Of a stretch of 23,887 bases of DNA, positions 3 to 23,829 are shown piece after piece. The position numbers and the translations under genes are program-made. This DNA comes from a virus. Position 1 is the stretch's first letter; every line of letters starts with the position of its first letter. Under the pieces are notes generated by a model. That model had not been told where the DNA came from. It ran no database searches and saw only the letters and a program-made list of their open reading frames with translations. The DNA is taken from positions 1 through 23,887 of IMG/VR virus record IMGVR_UViG_3300040806_003399; one strand, written 5' to 3'.

Positions 3-2195
3 CCAAACGGTCTTTTTTCTGCAACAGCAGAAAGAAATGATAGTAGTACGTATGGATTTGATAATACAACATCTACAATTACACTTCCTTCTACCGGACT
101 AGCAGATGGCTACATGTTTGTTGTGCGTGTAGAGACAGACGATACCTCAAATGGACGTTTTAACCCTAGTGGTCATGTTATTCAAGCTTCCGGTACAGGC
201 ACTTTTGTAGGCTCTCCAAGTGGGGGATTTAGTAGGGATACTTCAGAAGATAGAGCATACTTTAGTACGTGGGCTTTTGTAGATAACCCGAGTGCAAGTA
301 GCACATATCAATTTCAATGGAAGCGGGACGCCGATGCAGCGACAGGTACTACAATTATTGCAACATTTGATGTAATTCCTTTTTATTATTCTGATATTGG
401 TTTATATACTAGTACAAGTGCTGCTTTGTATGGAGGTACAACACCAAACCAAGTTACAGGATACTCAGGCACAGACGGCACTAATATTACACTTACTAGT
501 AATGTTGTAACTGTTACCGGAAATAATAAAAAATATCTTTGTTTGGGTGGTCAGTATTACGAAGGACGAGGCGGGCGAACTCAGCGCTGGATGGGTTGGC
601 GTATTGGTGGAACCAAAATTGACTATGGTAAAGGATACGCATATTATAGAAATAATTCAAACGATAATAATGGGTCAAGTTATTATCATATGTTTGAAAC
701 TACAACAGCAAGTGTTACAATAGACAACTTTTGTTATCTAGGCGATGGAGTAGCTGCAGGACAAGGTGGTGCAGATAGTGATGGAAGTACCCCTTCTTCT
801 GGTGACCATTGTATGGTAATTATAGAATTAAATGATAGTGCAGAAGGCTTTCATACAGTTGACAATACTGGAGGAGTTGATCTAAACGTAACGACTCCTG
901 TTGATCAAGTTCTTTGTCGCACAGCAGCAATTACATTTAATGACGCAGCATCTTTTACTCGCTCTACAGATACAGCAATGGATGTTACCGCAGCAGCAGA
1001 CATATTTATAGCCGCTAATATAACCGCAGCACAAGAGGTAGTTTCAACAACAGCACGCTGGACTTCTTGTGTAAGACCAACTGTAAACGGTACAGCAGAT
1101 AATGATATATTTGAAGGTAACTATGCACGTAACAATCAAGGTAGTATAGATACGTTTGGTTGGGGCTGTAATATTGCAGGATTTATTGGAGCCAGTACTG
1201 GAGACGATATCGGCGTAGAAACCCTAGAACATGCCGGAGGAGAAGATGGTGGGCAGTTTGAAGTGCAGCCTAATTGGTCCGGCTTTATGGGTCTTAATCT
1301 GGATACACTACAAGCCGCCGCTGCTACACAATATTCGGTAACTAGTGGACAAATTACCTTAGGTGGCGTTCAAGGATTTTTCGCCGACACAGGCAGTATT
1401 GCACTAGGTGATCTTTATCGCGGCGGAGGCATTGTTCCAGACATTACAGAAAATGCAGCAGTTCCTGCTAGTGGTGAAATTACACTAGCAGATATGTATG
1501 GTGTTTATAGCTCTAGTTCAACCGACGCAACTCCTGATGCCTTTACTTTTACTGATGTAACAGATGTTGCTGTATCAACAACGCAAACGTCTAATACTAT
1601 AACAGTCAGTGGCATGGATACTGGAGCATCAACAAGTGTTACAGTAACTGGAGGTGAGTATTCTAAAAATAGTGGGGCTTATACATCTACCGCAGGAACC
1701 GCGCAAAATTCAGACACATTTAGTGTACGACACATTTCATCAGCAAGTAATAGTACCTCTGTGAATACTACACTAAATATTGGTGGTGTAAGTGATACCT
1801 ATACGTCGACCACAGTGGCAGCTGCGGACGTCACACCAAGCAACACGAGCTGGTGGAATAACGTCAACGTGACCAACGCCTCAGGCACGACGGACACAAA
1901 CACGATTACCATTGCTGGCATCAACACTACAATTACACTCCGCATCGAAGCGACCACCGGCGGGCGTGACGCTTACAGCATCCGGCCACGTGTCAACAGC
2001 GCACTGGTTGGTACGGCACAGACCACACCTATTGATACGGCAGATGCGTTCACATTTACCGTCAGCAATGGTGACACCATCGCGTTTTTTCTGGACACGG
2101 TCGACCGAACGGAAAACGGTCAGGTGTCCATTTATAACCAAAGCGACAGCGACGCGTTGTTAGATACATTTACAGTTAACTTGGAGGTCAATTGA
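3..2195 (+). CDS. Tail fibre / receptor-binding-like structural protein, C-terminal part (5' partial)
   Basis: The frame is open from the first bases of the window, so the Met codon at 114 is probably internal and the gene starts upstream. The visible ~730 residues are rich in Thr, Ser, Asn, Gly and Ala and poor in Lys, like beta-structured phage tail adhesins. Three short related motifs follow one another at about 1344-1376 (SGQITLGG), 1392-1418 (GSIALGDLY) and 1470-1502 (SGEITLADMYG); such SG-I-L-D-YG motifs are common near the ends of phage structural proteins. From about 1530 to 1815 there is an Ig-like module of a type widespread in bacterial and phage surface proteins (DAFTFTDVTDVA, SNTITVSGM, GGEYSKNSGAYTS, TLNIGGVSDT). 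A second, divergent beta module occupies the end. The last ~360 bases have much higher GC. The role in host recognition is inferred. It could also be a tail-tip or decoration protein. Confidence 0.7.
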   Translation, partial: PNGLFSATAERNDSSTYGFDNTTSTITLPSTGLADGYMFVVRVETDDTSNGRFNPSGHVIQASGTGTFVGSPSGGFSRDTSEDRAYFSTWAFVDNPSASSTYQFQWKRDADAATGTTIIATFDVIPFYYSDIGLYTSTSAALYGGTTPNQVTGYSGTDGTNITLTSNVVTVTGNNKKYLCLGGQYYEGRGGRTQRWMGWRIGGTKIDYGKGYAYYRNNSNDNNGSSYYHMFETTTASVTIDNFCYLGDGVAAGQGGADSDGSTPSSGDHCMVIIELNDSAEGFHTVDNTGGVDLNVTTPVDQVLCRTAAITFNDAASFTRSTDTAMDVTAAADIFIAANITAAQEVVSTTARWTSCVRPTVNGTADNDIFEGNYARNNQGSIDTFGWGCNIAGFIGASTGDDIGVETLEHAGGEDGGQFEVQPNWSGFMGLNLDTLQAAAATQYSVTSGQITLGGVQGFFADTGSIALGDLYRGGGIVPDITENAAVPASGEITLADMYGVYSSSSTDATPDAFTFTDVTDVAVSTTQTSNTITVSGMDTGASTSVTVTGGEYSKNSGAYTSTAGTAQNSDTFSVRHISSASNSTSVNTTLNIGGVSDTYTSTTVAAADVTPSNTSWWNNVNVTNASGTTDTNTITIAGINTTITLRIEATTGGRDAYSIRPRVNSALVGTAQTTPIDTADAFTFTVSNGDTIAFFLDTVDRTENGQVSIYNQSDSDALLDTFTVNLEVN
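1801..2160 (+). other. GC-rich patch inside the adhesin gene, likely recently acquired module
   Basis: Counting bases by line, 1801-2160 is about 55% G+C (197 of 360), whereas 1741-1800 is 37% and the genes further on are AT-rich. The change is abrupt near 1803 and reverses near 2160, where the last codons of the protein return to AT-rich codons. The reading frame stays open throughout. This fits replacement of the C-terminal module of a receptor-binding protein by DNA from a higher-GC source. Confidence 0.75.
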
Positions 2196-3092: not shown

Positions 3093-4025
3093 ATGAACAG
3101 ATACTTAGATAAACTTAGTAAATTATATTACGAAGGCAACCCTGCCGTTAGTGATGAGGAGTTTGACCGACTAGCTGAGAAGCATAATTATAATGCTGTA
3201 GGCGCTAGAGAAGGAAAAACTCCTCATTACTTTCGTATGTATAGTCTCCAAAAAGTGCATTTTGGAGAAGAAGAACCTGTACTTACTAACCCAGTTACTA
3301 CACCAAAACTAGACGGAGCGGCTATCTCTGTACTTTATAGTGCTACGGAGTTTAAAACGCTACAAAACATTATTACTAGAGGCGATGGGGTAGTTGGCCA
3401 AGACATTACAAGTAAAATTTCTCATCTAGTGCCTCCAAGGCTTTTTGGTGGTACTGGTGGCATACAATTCAATTGTGAGGTTATAGCACCAAAGTCTATC
3501 CCAAATAGTAGAAACTATGCTTCTGGTGCCCTTAACCTAAAAGATGTATCAGAGGTTAAGCAGAGAGACCTAACAGTGGTTTGTTATGATGTGCTAGGAA
3601 CAGAACTACCTACTTACCTAGAACGTTTGCACTACGCCAAAGATTGCGGATTTACTACTGTCCTTGATGGTATGGATAACTTTCCCCACGATGGAAAAGT
3701 TGTAAGAGAAGATAATATTAGCCTCTATGAAAAAGCAGGCTTTACATCGAAACACCCTAGAGCAGCCTACGCACTAAAACCCAAACCACAAACAGTAGTA
3801 ACAAAGTTACTAGACGTAGAGTGGAATGTCGGCAGAAGTGGTGTAGTTGCCCCAGTAGCTATACTAGAGCCTGTACTTATTGGAGAAGCTACAGTTTCTA
3901 GAGCAACACTTCATAATATGGAATATATTAATAATCTTAATCTAGAAATAGGCTGCGACGTTGTTGTTGTAAGAAGTGGAGAAATTATTCCACGAATATT
4001 AGGAAGAGCGGATGAGCTACAATAA
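3093..4025 (+). CDS. ligA: NAD+-dependent DNA ligase, N-terminal half (Ia, adenylation and OB domains)
   Basis: The 310-residue product matches the first part of bacterial LigA. Residues 1-35 (LYYEGNPAVSDEEFDRL) form the NMN-binding Ia domain. The nucleotidyltransferase motif K72-L-D-G-A-A supplies the lysine that takes AMP from NAD+. TRGDGVVGQDIT (about 95-106) is the conserved segment after it, and residues about 240-305 (GRSGVVAPVAILEPV, SRATLHN, GCDVVVVRSGEIIPRI) are the OB fold. The protein ends there, whereas a complete LigA (about 670 residues) continues into zinc finger, HhH and BRCT domains; these are encoded separately at 5477-6193. T5 also has a ligase in two polypeptides. The start is fixed by the Ia domain and lies right at the predicted transcription start, so the mRNA may be leaderless. 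Confidence 0.92.
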   Translation: MNRYLDKLSKLYYEGNPAVSDEEFDRLAEKHNYNAVGAREGKTPHYFRMYSLQKVHFGEEEPVLTNPVTTPKLDGAAISVLYSATEFKTLQNIITRGDGVVGQDITSKISHLVPPRLFGGTGGIQFNCEVIAPKSIPNSRNYASGALNLKDVSEVKQRDLTVVCYDVLGTELPTYLERLHYAKDCGFTTVLDGMDNFPHDGKVVREDNISLYEKAGFTSKHPRAAYALKPKPQTVVTKLLDVEWNVGRSGVVAPVAILEPVLIGEATVSRATLHNMEYINNLNLEIGCDVVVVRSGEIIPRILGRADELQ

Positions 4026-5424: not shown

Positions 5425-5453
5425 TTGACTTTTCTTGGTTAAAAGAGTATACT
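5425..5453 (+). promoter_or_regulatory. Sigma70-like promoter for the ligase C-half and D5-like gene
   Basis: TTGACT at 5425-5430, a 17-base spacer and TATACT at 5448-5453 lie in the 71-base gap between thyX and the ligase C-half. The extended core ttcTTGACTTt is shared with the promoters at 8333 and 13863. Transcription should start at about 5460, leaving a leader of under 20 bases. An A-rich stretch (5412-5418) lies just upstream of the -35. Confidence 0.8.
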
Positions 5454-5476
5454 ATATAAACAATACAGAGATAAAT

Positions 5477-6193
5477 ATGAAGATTGTACCTCCTACAAAT
5501 TGCCCATCATGTGGACATACCTTAGTACTAGAAAATAATATACTGTACTGTAGAGGTATATCTTGTAAACAACAAAAGTACAAGACAATCGAAAATTTTG
5601 CTAAGGCAATGAAAATCTTAGGGCTTGGCCCAGCTTCTATCAAAAAGTTAGACTTTACCGACATTAGTGATATTTATATTAGCGAGAAAAGTTACTTTAT
5701 TGAGAGGCTAGGTACAGCTCTTGGTGAAAAACTGTATACAAATATACAACAATCTAAAGATGCATCATTAAATAAAATAATTGCATCAATGGGTATACCA
5801 TTAGTAGGCAAGACAGCAGCAGATAAAATTTGCTCAAAAGTTTCTAATATTTATGAAATAACAGAAGATTTAGTTAGAGAAACGCTTGGGCCAAAATCTG
5901 CTGATAACTTTATAACGTGGTTAAACTCAGACAGTTGGGTAAATCTTCCATTTCAATTTATTTCAGAAAAACCTGTTGAAGGTAAATCTGTTTGTATATC
6001 TGGAAAACTAAAGTCTTTCAAGACTAAAGCCCAAGCTGCCTCTTATTTAAAAGATAAAGGTTATGTTGTTACTTCTAGTGTAACAAAAAATACTGATATC
6101 CTAGTAAATGAATCAGGTCTTGAAAGCGAAAAAACTAAGAAAGCCCGTGCCAATGGCACACAAATCATAACTAATATAATGGAGTTAGAATGA
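5477..6193 (+). CDS. ligB: NAD+-dependent DNA ligase, C-terminal half (zinc finger, HhH, BRCT)
   Basis: The ATG at 5477 gives 238 residues; reading from a TTG at 5435 would place the start inside the promoter, so it is rejected. The N terminus has a four-cysteine zinc finger as in bacterial LigA: C9-P-S-C12 and C25-x4-C30. Next comes a helix-hairpin-helix region (KILGLGPASIKKL, SMGIPLVGKTAADKI, about 45-125). The end is a BRCT domain (about 165-238: GKSVCISGKLKSFKTKAQA, KGYVVTSSVTKNTDILV). This is what the protein at 3093-4025 lacks, so the two probably assemble into one nick-sealing ligase, as in T5. It has its own promoter and its TGA overlaps the next ATG. Confidence 0.9.
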   Translation: MKIVPPTNCPSCGHTLVLENNILYCRGISCKQQKYKTIENFAKAMKILGLGPASIKKLDFTDISDIYISEKSYFIERLGTALGEKLYTNIQQSKDASLNKIIASMGIPLVGKTAADKICSKVSNIYEITEDLVRETLGPKSADNFITWLNSDSWVNLPFQFISEKPVEGKSVCISGKLKSFKTKAQAASYLKDKGYVVTSSVTKNTDILVNESGLESEKTKKARANGTQIITNIMELE

Positions 6194-6921
6194 ATAAACT
6201 ACCCAAGTGGGATGAAGCACGTACTTCTGAGCTAGAAACTTTCGTAGGTTCAGAAGATCCTGTATCCCTGCAAACTGTTGCACAAGCAGCAGACAACCTA
6301 AACACAACGACTCGTTCTGTTGCATCAAAACTTCGTAAGATGGGTTACGATGTAGAAAAGGTTGCTAACGCAAACTCAAAGTCTTTTACTGATTACCAGG
6401 AAGACACACTGCGCGCATATCTTGAAAACAATAGTGGAGATTACACTTTTGCCGAGATTGCAGAAGTTTTTGAAGATGGCCAGTTTACTGCAAAGCAGCT
6501 ACAAGGCAAAATCTTGTCTATGGAGCTAACAGAGCACGTAAAGCCAGCTGAAAAGAAAGAGTATAAGCGTACCTACAGCGAAGAAGCACAGGAAACATTT
6601 ATCCAAATGGCTAATGATGGTGCACAGATTGAAGAGATTGCCGAAGCACTAGGTTATACTGTTGCTTCTGTACGAGGAAAAGCCCTTTCTCTTCTTCGCA
6701 GTGGTGAGATTTCAGCAATTCCTTCCTCTAACAAAGTAGCAAAAGCTGTAGATGCTTTTCAAGGTCTAGACATTGAAAGCATGACTGTTGAAGAGATTGC
6801 AAACGAGATTGATCGTTCACCTCGTGGTGTAAAAACAATGCTAACACGCCGTGGTCGCTCTGCTGTAGACTATGACGGAGCCGCTCGCCGTGAAAAAGCA
6901 GCTCGTGTAGCAGCTCAGTAA
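6190..6921 (+). CDS. Multi-HTH DNA-binding protein, T5 D5-like
   Basis: The 243-residue product appears to hold four degenerate repeats of about 55 residues with Myb/SANT- or HTH-like character: about 4-58 (TTRSVASKLRKMGYDVEKV), 66-115 (EIAEVFEDGQFTAKQLQGKI), 120-172 (EEIAEALGYTVASVRGKAL) and 183-225 (EEIANEIDRSPRGVKTMLTR). Each pairs a helix 'EEIA' with a basic recognition-like helix. The C terminus is strongly basic. Position between ligase and helicase matches the T5 D5 gene, an abundant DNA-binding protein needed for T5 replication and control of transcription. All 15 arginines use CGN codons, unlike the neighbours. A good site (GGAG at 6181) overlaps the ligase end, and a strong terminator follows. 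The D5 equivalence rests on position and general character. Confidence 0.7.
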   Translation: MNKLPKWDEARTSELETFVGSEDPVSLQTVAQAADNLNTTTRSVASKLRKMGYDVEKVANANSKSFTDYQEDTLRAYLENNSGDYTFAEIAEVFEDGQFTAKQLQGKILSMELTEHVKPAEKKEYKRTYSEEAQETFIQMANDGAQIEEIAEALGYTVASVRGKALSLLRSGEISAIPSSNKVAKAVDAFQGLDIESMTVEEIANEIDRSPRGVKTMLTRRGRSAVDYDGAARREKAARVAAQ

Positions 6922-18933: not shown

Positions 18934-20694
18934 ATGAAAATTGATTATACTAGAGACGAATTAATTGGTGAGTTTGCTTACCAAACCTTAAGAGATCGGT
19001 ACATGCTGCCGGAAGAAAGAAGCCCTCAGGATGCTTATGCTCGTGCAGCAAAAGCATTTGCAGACGATGATGAGCACGCACAAAGAATTTATGATTATGC
19101 GTCTAAGCAGTGGTTTATGTTTGCTACTCCTCTACTATCTAATGGAGGCTCTAGCAGAGGGCTGCCTATCTCCTGTTTTTTAAACTATGTAGACGATAGT
19201 AGAGAGGGAATTACCGATACACTAACCGAAGATGCCTTTCTTTCTAGTGTAGGAGGTGGAATTGGGACTTATTGGGGCTCTGTAAGATCAAAAGGAACAA
19301 AAACTTCTAGAGGTTCTGAAAGTACTGGTGTTGTACCCTTTATCAAGGTTAGTGACAGCATGATGTTAGCTTTTTCCCAAGGAGTTACACGTAGAGGCTC
19401 CAACGCTGCTTATCTGGATATCAGCCATCCAGAAGTAGAAGAATTTTTAGATATTCGTAAGCCTACTGGCGATTCTAACCGCAAGTGTGTAAATATACAC
19501 CACGGCATTGTAATCTCTGATAAGTTTATGCGTATCATTGAAAAAGCTACTGTAGATAAAAATTATGATGATAGCTGGCAACTAGTTGATCCTCATACAA
19601 AAGAAGTAGTAAAAACAGTATCTGCTAAAGCTCTTTGGATTAAGATTATTCAAAATAGACATGAGACTGGCGAACCTTACATTATGTGGGGAGACACTGT
19701 TAATGATCATTTGCCAGATTACCAAAGAAAGCTAGGTTTATCAGTAGCTCAATCTAATCTCTGTTCGGAAATTACCCTTCCAACAGACAATGAGCGAACA
19801 GCTGTATGTTGCTTATCGTCAGTAAATCTTGAAAAGTATGATGAGTGGAAACGAGATGAAAACTTTATTTCAGATCTTATCAGAATGTTAGACAATACAC
19901 TAGATGTATTTATTAATGAAGCACCTGATCAACTTTACAAAGCGGTATACTCTGCCCACAGAGAAAGATCTATTGGTCTAGGTGCTATGGGTTTCCACGC
20001 TTATCTTCAAAGCAAGGGTATTGCTTTTGAAAGCGAAGTAGCTAGAAAAGTAAATAGTAGTATCTTCCAGCACATTAAAAAAGAAGCATTGAAAGAATCT
20101 GTGCGGCTTGCAGACGAAAGAGGGCCGTGCCCTGATGCAAAAGGCAATGATAACGTTCGTAATGCGCACTTACTAGCTATCGCACCTAATGCTTCAAGTA
20201 GTATTATTTGTGGCAATACTTCTCCTGGTATTGAGCCCTATAGAGCTAATGTATTTAACCAAAAAACTCTGACGGGAACACATACTTTTAAAAATCCTTA
20301 TCTAAAAGCCGTGCTACAGGGGCATGATATGGACAATGAAGAAACTTGGGCAAGTATTATTTCTAACAAAGGAAGCATCTCTCACTTAGACTTGCCTGAC
20401 TATGTAAAAGATATTTTTAAGACTGCTATTGAGATTAATCAAAACTGGACAGTAAAACATGCTGCTGATCGACAGCCTTTTATCTGCCAGTCGCAATCTC
20501 TAAATCTTTTCTTTCCTGCTGATGTAGGCAAAAAAGAACTACATGATGTTCATATGTTTGCCTGGAAAGAAGGAGTCAAAACTTTATACTATTTACGGTC
20601 TGAAGCATTTAAACGATCAGATGACTTAAACAAAAAAATCGAGCGGTATAACTTTAAATTTGAAGAAAGTGACTGCTTAGCGTGTGAAGGATAA
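18934..20694 (+). CDS. nrdA: Ribonucleotide reductase class I, large subunit NrdA
   Basis: NrdA reduces ribonucleoside diphosphates to deoxy forms. The ATG at 18934 has GAGGAAAAA just upstream, so the TTG at 18922 is not used. In 586 residues the motifs are SCFL (substrate cysteine, about 86), NLCSEITLP with Asn, Cys and Glu of the active site (about 273-281), AVCCLSSVNL, LGAMGFHAYL, the phosphate-binding region APNASSSIICG, the radical-relay pair YYLR near 548, and a C-terminal C-L-A-C pair for thioredoxin-type re-reduction. The protein starts directly in the helical domain; there is no ATP-cone, which in E. coli NrdA takes up the first ~100 residues. The loss of the allosteric activity site is known in phage RNRs. 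The nrdB ATG lies two bases after the stop. Confidence 0.93.
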   Translation: MKIDYTRDELIGEFAYQTLRDRYMLPEERSPQDAYARAAKAFADDDEHAQRIYDYASKQWFMFATPLLSNGGSSRGLPISCFLNYVDDSREGITDTLTEDAFLSSVGGGIGTYWGSVRSKGTKTSRGSESTGVVPFIKVSDSMMLAFSQGVTRRGSNAAYLDISHPEVEEFLDIRKPTGDSNRKCVNIHHGIVISDKFMRIIEKATVDKNYDDSWQLVDPHTKEVVKTVSAKALWIKIIQNRHETGEPYIMWGDTVNDHLPDYQRKLGLSVAQSNLCSEITLPTDNERTAVCCLSSVNLEKYDEWKRDENFISDLIRMLDNTLDVFINEAPDQLYKAVYSAHRERSIGLGAMGFHAYLQSKGIAFESEVARKVNSSIFQHIKKEALKESVRLADERGPCPDAKGNDNVRNAHLLAIAPNASSSIICGNTSPGIEPYRANVFNQKTLTGTHTFKNPYLKAVLQGHDMDNEETWASIISNKGSISHLDLPDYVKDIFKTAIEINQNWTVKHAADRQPFICQSQSLNLFFPADVGKKELHDVHMFAWKEGVKTLYYLRSEAFKRSDDLNKKIERYNFKFEESDCLACEG

Positions 20695-20695
20695 A

Positions 20696-21646
20696 ATGCT
20701 AATAAAAACTAGAGAATACTATAAACCGTTTCAATACCCGTGGGCTTTCGAGCATTATAAAGCACAAAAGAAAATGGAGTGGCATCCTGAAGAAGTTCCG
20801 TTAGCTGAAGACATTTCGGATTATAACGCTTTTGACCCGTATACTAAGAAACTAATTACACAAATCTTTCGTTTCTTTACTCAAGCAGATGTGGATGTAG
20901 CAGGAGGGTATTGCCAACACTATCTTCCCACATTTAAGGCACCAGAAGTACGTATGATGATGGCTTCATTTGCTAGTATGGAAGCAACCCATATTGAAGC
21001 ATATTCTTTACTTATTGAAACGCTTGGTTTGTCGGATGATGAATACAAGATGTTTAGCAAGTATAAGGCCATGGCAGACAAACATGAGTATCTAGAAAAC
21101 TTCAATATGGATACTCCTGAAAATATTGCAAAGTCTTTAGCAGTATATAGCGGCTTTACAGAAGGTGTTCAGTTATTCTCATCTTTTGCTATCTTACTTA
21201 ACTTCCCTAGACATGGTAAAATGAAAAATATGGGTCAAATTGTATCTTGGTCTATACGAGATGAAAACTTGCATGTTGAGGGAATGACCCAGCTGTTTAG
21301 ACAATACATTGAAGAAAACCCATCTTTATGGACAGATGCCTTAAAGTCTCAGTTATACTCTATTGCAGAACGCATTGTAAGCCTAGAAGATGCTTTTATT
21401 GATCTATGCTTTGAAGGTGGAGAGTTAGAAAACTTATCAGCAGATGATGTAAAAGAGTATATTAGGTATATTGCTGGGCGCAGGCTAAATCAACTAGGTC
21501 TTAAAAATATCTTTAAGGCAGAGAAAAATCCATTACCTTGGATTGATGCAATGATTAACGCAGTAGAGCACACAAACTTCTTTGAAAATAGGCCAACAGA
21601 ATATGCAAAAGCTGCTACAACCGGAAATTGGGATGAGATATTTTGA
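20696..21646 (+). CDS. nrdB: Ribonucleotide reductase class I, small subunit NrdB
   Basis: NrdB carries the di-iron tyrosyl radical used by NrdA. The ATG at 20696 follows GAAGG (20686-20690) and gives 316 residues; an in-frame GTG at 20684 inside nrdA is less likely. Metal-ligand motifs are complete: an acidic residue in QADVDVAGGY, MEATHIEAYS with Glu, His and, four residues on, the radical Tyr, GFTEGVQLF with the third Glu, and RDENLHVEGM with ExxH. The retained Tyr points to class Ia rather than a radical-less or metal-variant class. The C terminus (EYAKAATTGNWDEIF) ends in acidic and aromatic residues, as needed for docking on NrdA. Its stop overlaps the next start. Confidence 0.93.
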   Translation: MLIKTREYYKPFQYPWAFEHYKAQKKMEWHPEEVPLAEDISDYNAFDPYTKKLITQIFRFFTQADVDVAGGYCQHYLPTFKAPEVRMMMASFASMEATHIEAYSLLIETLGLSDDEYKMFSKYKAMADKHEYLENFNMDTPENIAKSLAVYSGFTEGVQLFSSFAILLNFPRHGKMKNMGQIVSWSIRDENLHVEGMTQLFRQYIEENPSLWTDALKSQLYSIAERIVSLEDAFIDLCFEGGELENLSADDVKEYIRYIAGRRLNQLGLKNIFKAEKNPLPWIDAMINAVEHTNFFENRPTEYAKAATTGNWDEIF

Positions 21647-22281
21647 TAAGAGTATTTAATAACTTTTTGCCAGACGAAAAAGCCCATCAATTACTACATG
21701 ATATAGAAGCGATTAATGGGGGCTGGTGGAGAGACGCTAGAAAAGTAAGAGATCAAGAGGTACACTATTTTATACCAAATATATCTTCAGATTTAAAAAA
21801 GAGCAGGATAGAGTATAATATTGGTAACAGCCTAACTGATGGCTACTTTACCTACTCTTTTTCTAGAAGTGTAAAGCATGTAGATAGCTGTGTTTGTGCA
21901 GAGTGTAACTTTAAAAATGAGTTTTTGTTATCAGAAACATTTTTAAACTTTATCAGACAAGAAGCTAATATAAAGAAGCCCGTACTGTTTGAATCTTTTG
22001 TTAGTATTTATAAAAGGGGTGATTTTTTATCAACGCATACTGACAAAAATAGGGGTGTAGCATTTATATTGAATCTTACCCCAAACTGGAGGGCCGAGTA
22101 CGGCGGGTTGTTACACGTATACACAGAAGATGGAATAAAAGCTTACACGCCTACTTTTAATTCTTTAATATTACTAGGGTTAAATAATGGAAAAGGGCTC
22201 AATCATTTTGTTTCTGAAGTAAGCCAATATGCTCCAAGACCTAGAATAGCAATAACAGGGTGGTACAATGAAAGTAGTTAA
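21643..22281 (+). CDS. 2-oxoglutarate/Fe(II)-dependent dioxygenase
   Basis: The 212-residue product has the double-stranded beta-helix core of prolyl-4-hydroxylase-type enzymes. The iron ligands are H132-T-D134 (LSTHTDKNRG) and H188 (LNHFVSEV), and Arg201 in RPRIAITGWY binds 2-oxoglutarate. NLTPNWRAEYGGLLHVY (144-160) matches the segment common in Tpa1/OGFOD1-like members. An added loop holds a C-x-C-x-x-C cluster (C83, C85, C88) that could bind metal. The likely start is the TTG at 21643, overlapping the nrdB stop, with GGATGAG about six bases before. It overlaps the glycosyltransferase gene by 14 bases. Targets of phage members of this family are mostly unknown; hydroxylation of a protein, sugar or base are all possible. 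Confidence 0.85.
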   Translation: MIRVFNNFLPDEKAHQLLHDIEAINGGWWRDARKVRDQEVHYFIPNISSDLKKSRIEYNIGNSLTDGYFTYSFSRSVKHVDSCVCAECNFKNEFLLSETFLNFIRQEANIKKPVLFESFVSIYKRGDFLSTHTDKNRGVAFILNLTPNWRAEYGGLLHVYTEDGIKAYTPTFNSLILLGLNNGKGLNHFVSEVSQYAPRPRIAITGWYNESS

Positions 22282-23269
22282 TATATGTTCTACTAGGTAT
22301 AGTAATCTTACCTATCAGTGGGATGATGCACTAAACCATATTATGAAAGCATTTCGCGAGCTAGGATATACTGTAAAAGTATCATCAAACTTAGTAATGC
22401 AAAAAATGCCTGAGTTTGTAGAGATTGGTTTGGAGCACAGCAGTGAAGCTATATATGTGTATAATCATACATATTTGCAGGAAATAAAAGAGTTAGATCT
22501 TCCATTAGGTAAACTAAATCTTTTTGTAAAGCCTACTGCTCCTGCTCCAAACTACTTTACAATAGATAAGTTGGGTTATGCTGCAAGTTCTGAAATTACG
22601 TATAATAAGCCAAACTTTGAAAATGTAGAATATGAAACATTTTACTCTACCGTAGTCAAAGAGTTAAAATCTAACAGGGAACACAAATGGTCTAGAACAA
22701 AAGAAGTAACATTTACACCGACTAATAATGTTCCAGAAGACCATATCTTAATTTTGGGTCAAATGATTGGGGACGAAACTGTTACAAAGTTTAGTTTTGG
22801 AAATCATTGGGTTAAGCTGCAAAGTATAGTGGAAAAACTAAAAGGTAGAGATAATGTGGTACTAAAACTGCATCCTACATTTAAGTCAAAGATGGGAAAC
22901 TTACCTCAGTGGGATGGTCTATATAAGATAATTAATAGGTGGAAGCAAGAAGGCATTACAGTATATGAAACCTATGAAAGTTTATACGATATTTTGCCGC
23001 ACACAAATGTTGCAATACTAGAAAATAGTACTGCAGGTATTGAATGTTTAATGCATGAGGTTCCTATTATATCATATGGTTATCCTGAGTTTCACTGGGT
23101 CACTAAGGATCTTCGACACCTTAATATGTTAGACAGCTATATTGAGGACACCTCTTGGTGGGATTTAGAAAAGTCAAAGCAATGGTTAGCGTGGTACTGT
23201 ACAAAGTATCAATGTCACAACTACGCTAGCACATTTAATAGAGTGGAGGAACTATGTTCGGAGATCTAG
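22268..23269 (+). CDS. KpsC/KpsS-like glycosyltransferase (GT-B fold)
   Basis: In this 333-residue protein the second half looks like the capsule-polysaccharide (KpsC/KpsS-type) transferases. ILILGQMIGDE (about 157-167) opens the nucleotide-sugar domain, VVLKLHPTFKS (about 197-207) is the conserved KxHP segment, and ILENSTAGIECLMHEVPII (about 254-272) matches the 'St-G-EAl---pvi--G' motif, followed by SYGYPEFHW. The first ~140 residues form the other Rossmann-like lobe (VVNICSTRYSN, HIMKAFRELGYTVKV). Such enzymes often transfer Kdo. In a phage the target could be virion protein, DNA base or host surface glycan. It lies between the dioxygenase and methyltransferase genes and overlaps both. Homology was judged by eye only. 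Confidence 0.68.
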   Translation: MKVVNICSTRYSNLTYQWDDALNHIMKAFRELGYTVKVSSNLVMQKMPEFVEIGLEHSSEAIYVYNHTYLQEIKELDLPLGKLNLFVKPTAPAPNYFTIDKLGYAASSEITYNKPNFENVEYETFYSTVVKELKSNREHKWSRTKEVTFTPTNNVPEDHILILGQMIGDETVTKFSFGNHWVKLQSIVEKLKGRDNVVLKLHPTFKSKMGNLPQWDGLYKIINRWKQEGITVYETYESLYDILPHTNVAILENSTAGIECLMHEVPIISYGYPEFHWVTKDLRHLNMLDSYIEDTSWWDLEKSKQWLAWYCTKYQCHNYASTFNRVEELCSEI

Positions 23270-23829
23270 CGTTAGTATTTTTAGACAATAAAAAATTTAC
23301 CTCTGTACTAGACATTGGATGCGGCAGAGGAGAAGCTACTAGACACTTTATGCAAAGAGGTAAAAGTGTTACTAGTGTGGATATAGCAAATGTAGGAGCC
23401 CCTAATGTAACTATTGGTAACTACATGGACTTAAAACTAGATAAATATGATCTTATCTGGGCATCCCACGTACTAGAACATCAGCTTAATGTTAATGCTT
23501 TTTTACGCAAGTGTAGATCCGAGCAAAATGAAGGCGGTCTAATATGCGTTACTGTGCCCCCACTAAAACATGAAATTGTTGGCGGTCATGTTACGTTATG
23601 GAATGCCGGTCTAGTGATGTATAATCTTATCTTGGCAGGGTATAACTGTAGAGACTGCCACATAAAGCAATATGGTTATAATATATCTGTAATAGCAAAA
23701 GCAGACAACTTTACGTTGCCTGCTTTGCGGTATGATTACGGTGATATTGGAACTTTAGCTCCATATTTTCCACCTGAGTTTGGGTTTCAAGGATTTAATG
23801 GAGACATAAGAGAGTATAATTGGAATTAA
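23254..23829 (+). CDS. Class I SAM-dependent methyltransferase
   Basis: The 191-residue product has a Rossmann methyltransferase core. Motif I is VLD20-I-G-C-G-R-G26 (SAM binding), the acidic residue after strand 2 is in VTSVDIA (about 40-46), and LIWASHVLEH (about 67-76) is the motif IV/post-I segment usual in Methyltransf_11-type enzymes. GGLICVTVPPLKHEIVGGHV follows. There is no DPPY or NPPF motif as in N6-adenine or N4-cytosine DNA methylases, nor a PC motif for 5-methylcytosine, so a small molecule, sugar or protein target is more likely than plain DNA methylation. The GGAGG at 23245-23249 precedes the ATG, which overlaps the glycosyltransferase end by 16 bases. Confidence 0.85.
   Translation: MFGDLALVFLDNKKFTSVLDIGCGRGEATRHFMQRGKSVTSVDIANVGAPNVTIGNYMDLKLDKYDLIWASHVLEHQLNVNAFLRKCRSEQNEGGLICVTVPPLKHEIVGGHVTLWNAGLVMYNLILAGYNCRDCHIKQYGYNISVIAKADNFTLPALRYDYGDIGTLAPYFPPEFGFQGFNGDIREYNWN

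Follow-up and report, generated by a model that had tools for sequence, protein, structure and literature searches.

Three overlapping phage genes for an oxygenase, a glycosyltransferase, and a methyltransferase form a cassette that probably modifies tail proteins, likely collagen-like ones

The IMG/VR virus record IMGVR_UViG_3300040806_003399 is an incomplete phage fragment of 23,887 bases, and we analyzed the entire record (the window). At its right end, on the plus strand and after two genes for ribonucleotide reductase (RNR), are three overlapping genes: a 2-oxoglutarate (2OG)-Fe(II) dioxygenase (OXY), a glycosyltransferase (GT), and a methyltransferase (MT). We consider it fairly likely that this trio is a cassette for modifying a virion tail protein of a marine-type tailed phage and that the target is probably collagen-like. 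It is the tail fibers of the phage itself, rather than its DNA, that the cassette most likely decorates. A sequence-only reading of the window had proposed a coupled series of hydroxylation, glycosylation, and methylation, and our analysis supports the identities that it gave to the genes, their coupling, and the idea of one such series. That reading had offered three targets. We favor the virion protein because relatives of the trio adjoin collagen-like tail proteins; the host glycan remains as a rival, and a DNA base is disfavored.

The open reading frames (ORFs) were as first described, and the trio is directly behind nrdB (Table 1). The overlaps are 4 nt between nrdB and OXY, 14 nt between OXY and GT, and 16 nt between GT and MT. 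Each of the three has full-length homologues (41-70% identity), and comparison with the trio of the closest relative, contig L003, shows the greatest divergence at third codon positions, from which we conclude that all three are conserved and coding rather than frames open by chance. OXY begins with TTG in the window and with ATG in L003. There is no sugar-nucleotide gene and no membrane or export gene alongside the trio.

OXY belongs to Pfam family 2OG-FeII_Oxy_4 (3.6e-16). When we compared a profile of 18 homologues to solved structures, the matches were OGFOD1 (4nhx, 2.7e-20), TPA1 (6e-7), the prolyl 4-hydroxylase (P4H) of P. putida (2.1e-5), and PHD2/EGLN1 (6e-4). The AlphaFold2 model (predicted local distance difference test [pLDDT] score of 92.6) is also most similar in fold to prolyl hydroxylases (P4H, OGFOD1, and PHD2), as well as to the nucleoside-antibiotic enzymes PolD and PasI, which have small-molecule substrates. 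The earlier assignment of OXY to the prolyl-hydroxylase type therefore holds by both profile and fold, and these similarities suggest that the substrate residue is most likely a peptidyl proline. OXY has the HxD...H iron triad and the 2OG-binding arginine in a double-stranded beta-helix, and we assigned roles to H132, D134, H188, and R201 because of this fold. The extra C-x-C-x-x-C loop that had been noticed is real and slightly larger than claimed, as it includes H79; it is a probable zinc-like site that would bind a metal. In common with OGFOD1/Tpa1 and the bacterial and hypoxia-inducible factor (HIF) prolyl hydroxylases, to which its profile match is significant, OXY has the catalytic domain and the Fe and 2OG residues. 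It is unlike them in being one short domain, in its H-C-C-C loop, and in its genetic coupling to a glycosyltransferase.

GT is barely past the curated cut-off for the Pfam family Capsule_synth (2.8e-4). In a Foldseek search with its AlphaFold2 model (pLDDT 95.6), the top match was KpsC-N (6mgc, 2.4e-8, TM-score ~0.5), with WaaG, other transferases for 3-deoxy-D-manno-oct-2-ulosonic acid (Kdo), and further GT-B enzymes close behind. The GT profile matches the sequence of KpsC (6mgc) weakly (E=0.17, which is at noise level). This weak alignment places Q165-x3-D169 of GT over Q156-x3-D160 of KpsC and K-x-H202-P203 over KVHP. D160 has been proven to act as the nucleophile of KpsC, and enzymes of that class have QXXXD and HP motifs in common (PMC10148158). 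In this class, HP is the motif for CMP (cytidine monophosphate). Y104, K140, and W141 are invariant across 36 GTs and resemble Y93, K133, and Y134 at the Kdo site of KpsC in their spacing only. Given the conserved catalytic motifs and the best fold match, we agree with the prediction of a KpsC-like transferase. Like KpsC (GT107) and WbbB (GT99), GT has the GT-B fold, both motifs, and a similar spacing of the tyrosine and the lysine-aromatic pair. Unlike these enzymes, with the nearest of which it aligns at noise level, GT is a single short module, is viral, and adjoins tail proteins instead of capsule or lipopolysaccharide (LPS) genes.

The GT tree has two clades (split support 100/100), and the GT of the window is in clade A. 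The family is almost exclusively viral, with members on 181 viral contigs and on 1 contig among 85,000 genomes. The latter (L100) is a 10.9-kb contig of a planctomycete metagenome-assembled genome (MAG), and its neighbors match those of clade B phages, so it is probably a viral contig that was wrongly binned. We rejected a cellular origin for GT on the basis of this single, probably viral match. Across 50,697 deposited phage records, neither clade of GT has a relative, and OXY has one partial match, in an unannotated record; hence there was no annotation to borrow.

MT has no close relative among solved structures, and its C-terminal half is strongly conserved (LKHEIVGGHVTLWNAGLVMYNL). Its GT-linked homologues are 55-70% identical to it. 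If we consider contigs that encode an MT at least 55% identical and that have intact upstream sequence, GT is directly upstream in 6 of 6.

The three genes do occur together in other phages, which the sequence-only reading had suggested checking. L003 has the identical trio, gene order, and nrdB-OXY junction. L032 has the order MT-OXY-GT. In phage G008 (L009), GT-MT is near a helicase gene and OXY is ~14 kb away, behind RNR with one small ORF intervening. OXY-GT without MT is found in L002, L004/5, L006, L016, L028, L031, L033, L034, and L035/36, and the ends of the two genes overlap in L002, L004/5, L006, L016, and L034. A scan for OXY alone found an adjacent GT in 7 of 12 contigs; no GT shows in L092, L095, L097-L099, or L217. 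Phages G010 and G022 have GT-MT without a window-type OXY, and they carry a different 2OG oxygenase. Overall, OXY, GT, and MT are modular, and GT is the hub of the set.

All of the collagen-linked GTs belong to clade A. The GT/OXY unit has a collagen-like ORF (with Gly-X-Y repeats) no more than two genes upstream in L005, L006, L016, L018, L026, L027, L028, L029, L030, L032, L033, L034, and L085. These GTs, usually together with OXY, are found in three unrelated tail settings: a first family of J-type tail tips (L005/L030/L032/L029/L085), a second family (L016/L028/L034), and a T4-like baseplate region (L018, L026, and L027). Most of the OXY-GT pairs are within tail modules, and L002 and G008 encode collagen-like tail proteins elsewhere on the contig; the collagen-like protein of G008 is at L111:7194-9356 on the minus strand. 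Linkage of the enzymes to a Gly-X-Y protein is seen in many relatives and in G008; there is none on the incomplete records of the window and L003. Within clade A, the GT-MT subgroup (L007-L010, L012, and L118) sits among replication or other genes. Clade B (L038-L088, e.g., L074:10025-10831) is from T4-like phages, many of which have a pyrimidine-dimer-glycosylase-like gene beside GT (Pyr_excise, 6e-4). Clade B loci have no OXY and no collagen nearby, and despite many metagenomic copies, they have no match among deposited phages.

We also surveyed the J tail-tip proteins themselves. We fetched homologues of both J families without reference to modification enzymes, which gave 55 J genes that were non-redundant and had sequence downstream of them, and we considered a protein to have collagen repeats if at least 30 residues were in Gly-X-Y runs (16 of 55). 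A 2OG oxygenase or glycosyltransferase was among the next three genes for 11 of the 16 collagen J proteins versus 0 of the 39 others, among the matches listed (Fisher test, p=3.7e-8, which is not the p-value of a pre-planned test because we framed this comparison after viewing the downstream genes; the control arm is clean). After collapsing near-relatives, these counts were 9/14 versus 0/38, again among the matches listed (p=5e-7). For the non-collagen arm, the Pfam count spans 79 of 87 genes; the families listed end at E=1.3e-4, with 8 lower-ranking beyond. An earlier and narrower two-by-two test, which related window-type OXY or GT to the presence of collagen in J proteins, gave only a marginal result (2/12 versus 0/48, p=0.037). 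All nine J proteins with over 200 collagen residues had an enzyme neighbor, and the five collagen J proteins without one had just 33-63 collagen residues. The enzymes behind collagen J proteins include window-type OXY and GT and also other families: other 2OG oxygenases (L156, L167, L202, L208, L264, and L274), GT4-type transferases (L224 and L245), and a GT25+GT_PLOD protein (L207). Some of these are from a second 2OG-Fe(II) oxygenase family (MRQxWQLWxG...), distinct from OXY, that lies directly behind collagen-bearing J proteins (Table 1).

Other neighbors resemble enzymes that modify collagen. In L029, the same GT is beside a 618-residue protein with GT25, GT_PLOD (6e-49), and C-terminal 2OG domains, which is the domain make-up of LH3 and of Mimivirus L230. 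L085 likewise has a PLOD-type protein beside this GT. The PLOD-type proteins of L029, L207, and L085 adjoin collagen-like tail proteins, and judging by their domains, they are the phage counterpart of LH3/L230. By Pfam, none of the proteins in the window matches PLOD or GT25; only these neighbors do. The collagen of L029 has lysine at 53% of its Y positions, and in the other collagens that we examined, Y is mostly threonine, glutamine, or alanine. Thus, the L029 enzyme is matched to a collagen with lysine at Y, which supports the view that these neighbors are collagen-modifying enzymes.

For the phage of the window, the catalytic steps and their order, the residue, the sugar, and the collagen-like target are inferred as follows. 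OXY would hydroxylate a tail-fiber protein, most likely at proline and probably within a Gly-X-Y stretch. GT would form a covalent intermediate at Asp169 with the sugar from a CMP-activated donor, most likely CMP-Kdo from the host, and would transfer the sugar to the hydroxyl made by OXY, to a neighboring threonine, or to a sugar that is already present. MT would then cap the glycosylated product by methylating it. The outcome would be a stabilized triple helix and altered chemistry at the surface of the tail fiber. Gram-negative hosts make CMP-Kdo, so this donor would account for the absence of a sugar-nucleotide gene from the trio if the host is Gram-negative.

Collagen modification is usually considered an animal trait, with few outliers (Mimivirus and Bacillus spores). 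Mimivirus L230 is described as a lysyl hydroxylase and glucosyltransferase that acts on viral collagen (Luther et al. 2011, via PMC9614988). Our proposal for the trio is similar, in that a virus would supply both the oxygenase and the glycosyltransferase that act on its collagen-like proteins. By that account, L230 is one GT25+PLOD polypeptide that acts on lysine; in contrast, the trio, which is found in tailed phages, comprises three separate genes, for an oxygenase of the prolyl-hydroxylase type, a transferase of the KpsC type, and a methyltransferase. Fusions like L230 occur in the related phage loci L029 and L207, and the trio may work like L230 yet outside the PLOD family. Glycosylation of mycobacteriophage virions is described as involving three glycosyltransferases and an O-methyltransferase (Freeman et al. 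2023, cited in PMC11600133). If we compare the descriptions, both systems have a phage-encoded glycosyltransferase and methyltransferase, which in the mycobacteriophages act on virion proteins; that description places the targets in the capsid and tail tube and the hosts in mycobacteria, and it mentions no oxygenase. BclA of Bacillus is a glycosylated collagen-like protein from a prokaryote that also has a P4H (PMC8968730), as in our proposal, but it is a bacterial spore surface protein and not an overlapping phage cassette. A survey of pelagimyophages noted both collagen repeats and glycosyltransferases and took the latter for O-antigen modifiers (PMC7029224). In the literature that we searched, whose coverage leaves out most subscription papers, nothing describes a phage tail collagen that has its own hydroxylase or transferase next to it.

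A bolder version of our proposal is possible, but we hold it tentatively and think it is more doubtful than the cassette itself. Tailed phages of the sea may have a general and previously undescribed system for the hydroxylation, glycosylation, and methylation of collagen-like tail fibers. The version in the window would place Kdo or another ulosonic acid, from host CMP-Kdo, on a hydroxylated collagen residue, which would be a new protein modification. More generally, a long collagen repeat in a phage tail protein predicts that a hydroxylase or glycosyltransferase gene is adjacent, with no exception in our sample. This gives a testable function to many phage 2OG oxygenases and glycosyltransferases that are annotated as unknown, as metabolic, or as modifying the host's LPS. 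It also suggests a way for phages to tune or shield their adsorption fibers, and compact single-module prolyl hydroxylases and transferases could be of use for producing modified collagen in bacteria.

Several observations weigh against a collagen-like tail protein as the target. First, the trio of the window is behind RNR and not behind a tail gene. Second, there is no collagen-like ORF on the 24-kb window or on the 34-kb contig of L003 (both incomplete records), so the target in the phage of the window is unproven; furthermore, the tail-tip protein of L003 is homologous to collagen-bearing ones yet has no repeats. Third, of the GT loci that we fetched, a clear majority (clade B, T4-like) have no OXY or collagen nearby. 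Fourth, the TM-score between GT and KpsC is only ~0.5, and to our knowledge, the characterized KpsC enzymes glycosylate sugars and not protein. Finally, proline at Y, which is the classical site for P4H, is rare in these repeats (0-10%). The collagens of phages with OXY have proline mainly at X (46-79%), where a proline target would mainly have to be, and the P4H of Bacillus acts at X and Y alike (PMC8968730). We sought the target residue by comparing the triplet composition of collagens from phages with and without OXY, and there was no clear difference.

The alternative that survives best, although we think it unlikely, is that the target is the host's surface: during infection, GT would add Kdo to the LPS or capsule, MT would methylate it, OXY would hydroxylate the sugar, and superinfecting phages would be excluded. 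Kdo hydroxylase does hydroxylate the Kdo sugar, and the enzymes nearest to GT are the Kdo transferases for LPS and capsule. The authors of the pelagimyophage survey interpreted phage glycosyltransferases near tail genes as modifiers of the O-antigen (PMC7029224). However, OXY matches peptidyl-prolyl hydroxylases, with no Kdo hydroxylase among the fold matches listed, and the trio is not accompanied by a membrane or export gene. Nor does a host-surface target predict that collagen-like tail proteins would recur as neighbors, or that collagen enzymes of the PLOD type would.

It is improbable that the enzymes and collagen-like proteins merely share a hot spot for cargo genes, with no functional tie. 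Tail-fiber regions are hypervariable and often have accessory genes (PMC7029224), but no such enzyme was found behind the non-collagen J proteins (among the matches listed), the presence of an enzyme follows the length of the collagen, and the PLOD-type hydroxylase/transferase is beside the collagen with lysine at Y. Slightly less probable still is that OXY hydroxylates a host translation protein, either ribosomal protein uS12 or EF-Tu, as do OGFOD1, Tpa1, and the Pseudomonas enzyme, and that its neighbors are separate. The closest structural relatives of OXY do act on uS12 and EF-Tu, but the recurrent OXY-GT overlap and the location next to collagen-like proteins suggest that these enzymes act on the same substrate.

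We give the least credence to DNA hypermodification, in which the oxygenase would hydroxylate a base and the transferase would then glycosylate it. Such pairs do hypermodify DNA in other phages and in kinetoplastids, and the trio is in a replication module, behind RNR. Nevertheless, OXY is nearest to peptidyl-prolyl hydroxylases and GT to beta-Kdo transferases, most OXY-GT pairs are in tail modules, the ThyX of the window is an ordinary one (4.5e-41), and none of its proteins that we scanned is a nucleotide hydroxymethylase, Tet/JBP, or other base-modification enzyme. The suggestion that the trio is an undescribed system still stands, and the target that we favor for it is a virion protein; its DNA version fails, as the families do not fit and the proteins that we scanned include no partner enzyme.

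Table 1. Positions of the genes and motifs of the cassette and of related enzymes in other contigs
Feature	Record	Position	Strand	Remarks
RNR small subunit (nrdB)	window	20684..21646	+	Pfam Ribonuc_red_sm 5.5e-72; context gene
OXY, 2OG-Fe(II) dioxygenase, prolyl-hydroxylase type	window	21643..22281	+	212 aa; TTG start
H79-x3-C83-x-C85-x2-C88 loop of OXY	window	21877..21906	+	conserved in 17/18 homologues
Fe(II)-binding H132-x-D134 of OXY	window	22036..22044	+	invariant 18/18
Third Fe ligand H188 of OXY	window	22204-22206	+	invariant 18/18
2OG-binding R201 of OXY	window	22243-22245	+	invariant 18/18
Shine-Dalgarno-like AGGGTGG within OXY, before GT	window	22257..22263	+	read in sequence
GT, GT-B glycosyltransferase resembling KpsC (a retaining beta-Kdo transferase)	window	22268..23269	+	333 aa
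QXXXD motif Q165-M-I-G-D169 of GT	window	22760..22774	+	Q165 and D169 invariant in 36/36 GTs
HP motif H202-P203 of GT	window	22871..22876	+	H 35/36, P 36/36
Shine-Dalgarno GGAGG within GT, before MT	window	23245..23249	+	read in sequence
MT, class I S-adenosylmethionine (SAM)-dependent methyltransferase	window	23254..23829	+	191 aa; Pfam Methyltransf_23 3e-14
GT25+GT_PLOD+2OG protein	L029	4160-6016		
GT25+GT_PLOD protein	L207	8074-9315		cut off
GT2+GT_PLOD protein	L085	8458-9993		
Second 2OG-Fe(II) oxygenase family	L156	6283-6825		
Second 2OG-Fe(II) oxygenase family	L167	7202-7744		
Second 2OG-Fe(II) oxygenase family	L202	17355-17900		
Second 2OG-Fe(II) oxygenase family	L208	17116-17661		

Two of the relatives have further modification genes. 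G010 (L112:3954-6472) has a second cluster, which encodes another 2OG oxygenase and an unassigned 273-aa protein in addition to an MptE-like protein and another methyltransferase. In G022 (L118:2012-3150), at least the MptE-like protein and the methyltransferase are side by side.

Gene 1 of the window (3-2195) encodes the C-terminal 730 aa of a large tail-fiber-like protein, with its 5' end missing. We considered it as a hidden collagen and rejected it: the part on the record, which is cut off at the 5' end, has no repeats, and we found no homologue of it in the loci that had been fetched at that stage. The next gene (2192-2491) encodes a 99-aa protein with a hydrophobic segment and no Pfam match; its CLAHDVDYWY resembles the active site of secreted phospholipase A2 (C-x2-HD-x2-Y). 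The NAD-dependent DNA ligase is apparently in two genes (3093-4025, with adenylation and oligonucleotide-binding [OB] domains, and 5435-6193, similar to the C-terminal part), with thyX and small genes in between. The protein encoded at 6190-6921 has several helix-turn-helix units that match region 4 of sigma-70, and similar proteins are found in L007 and L010.

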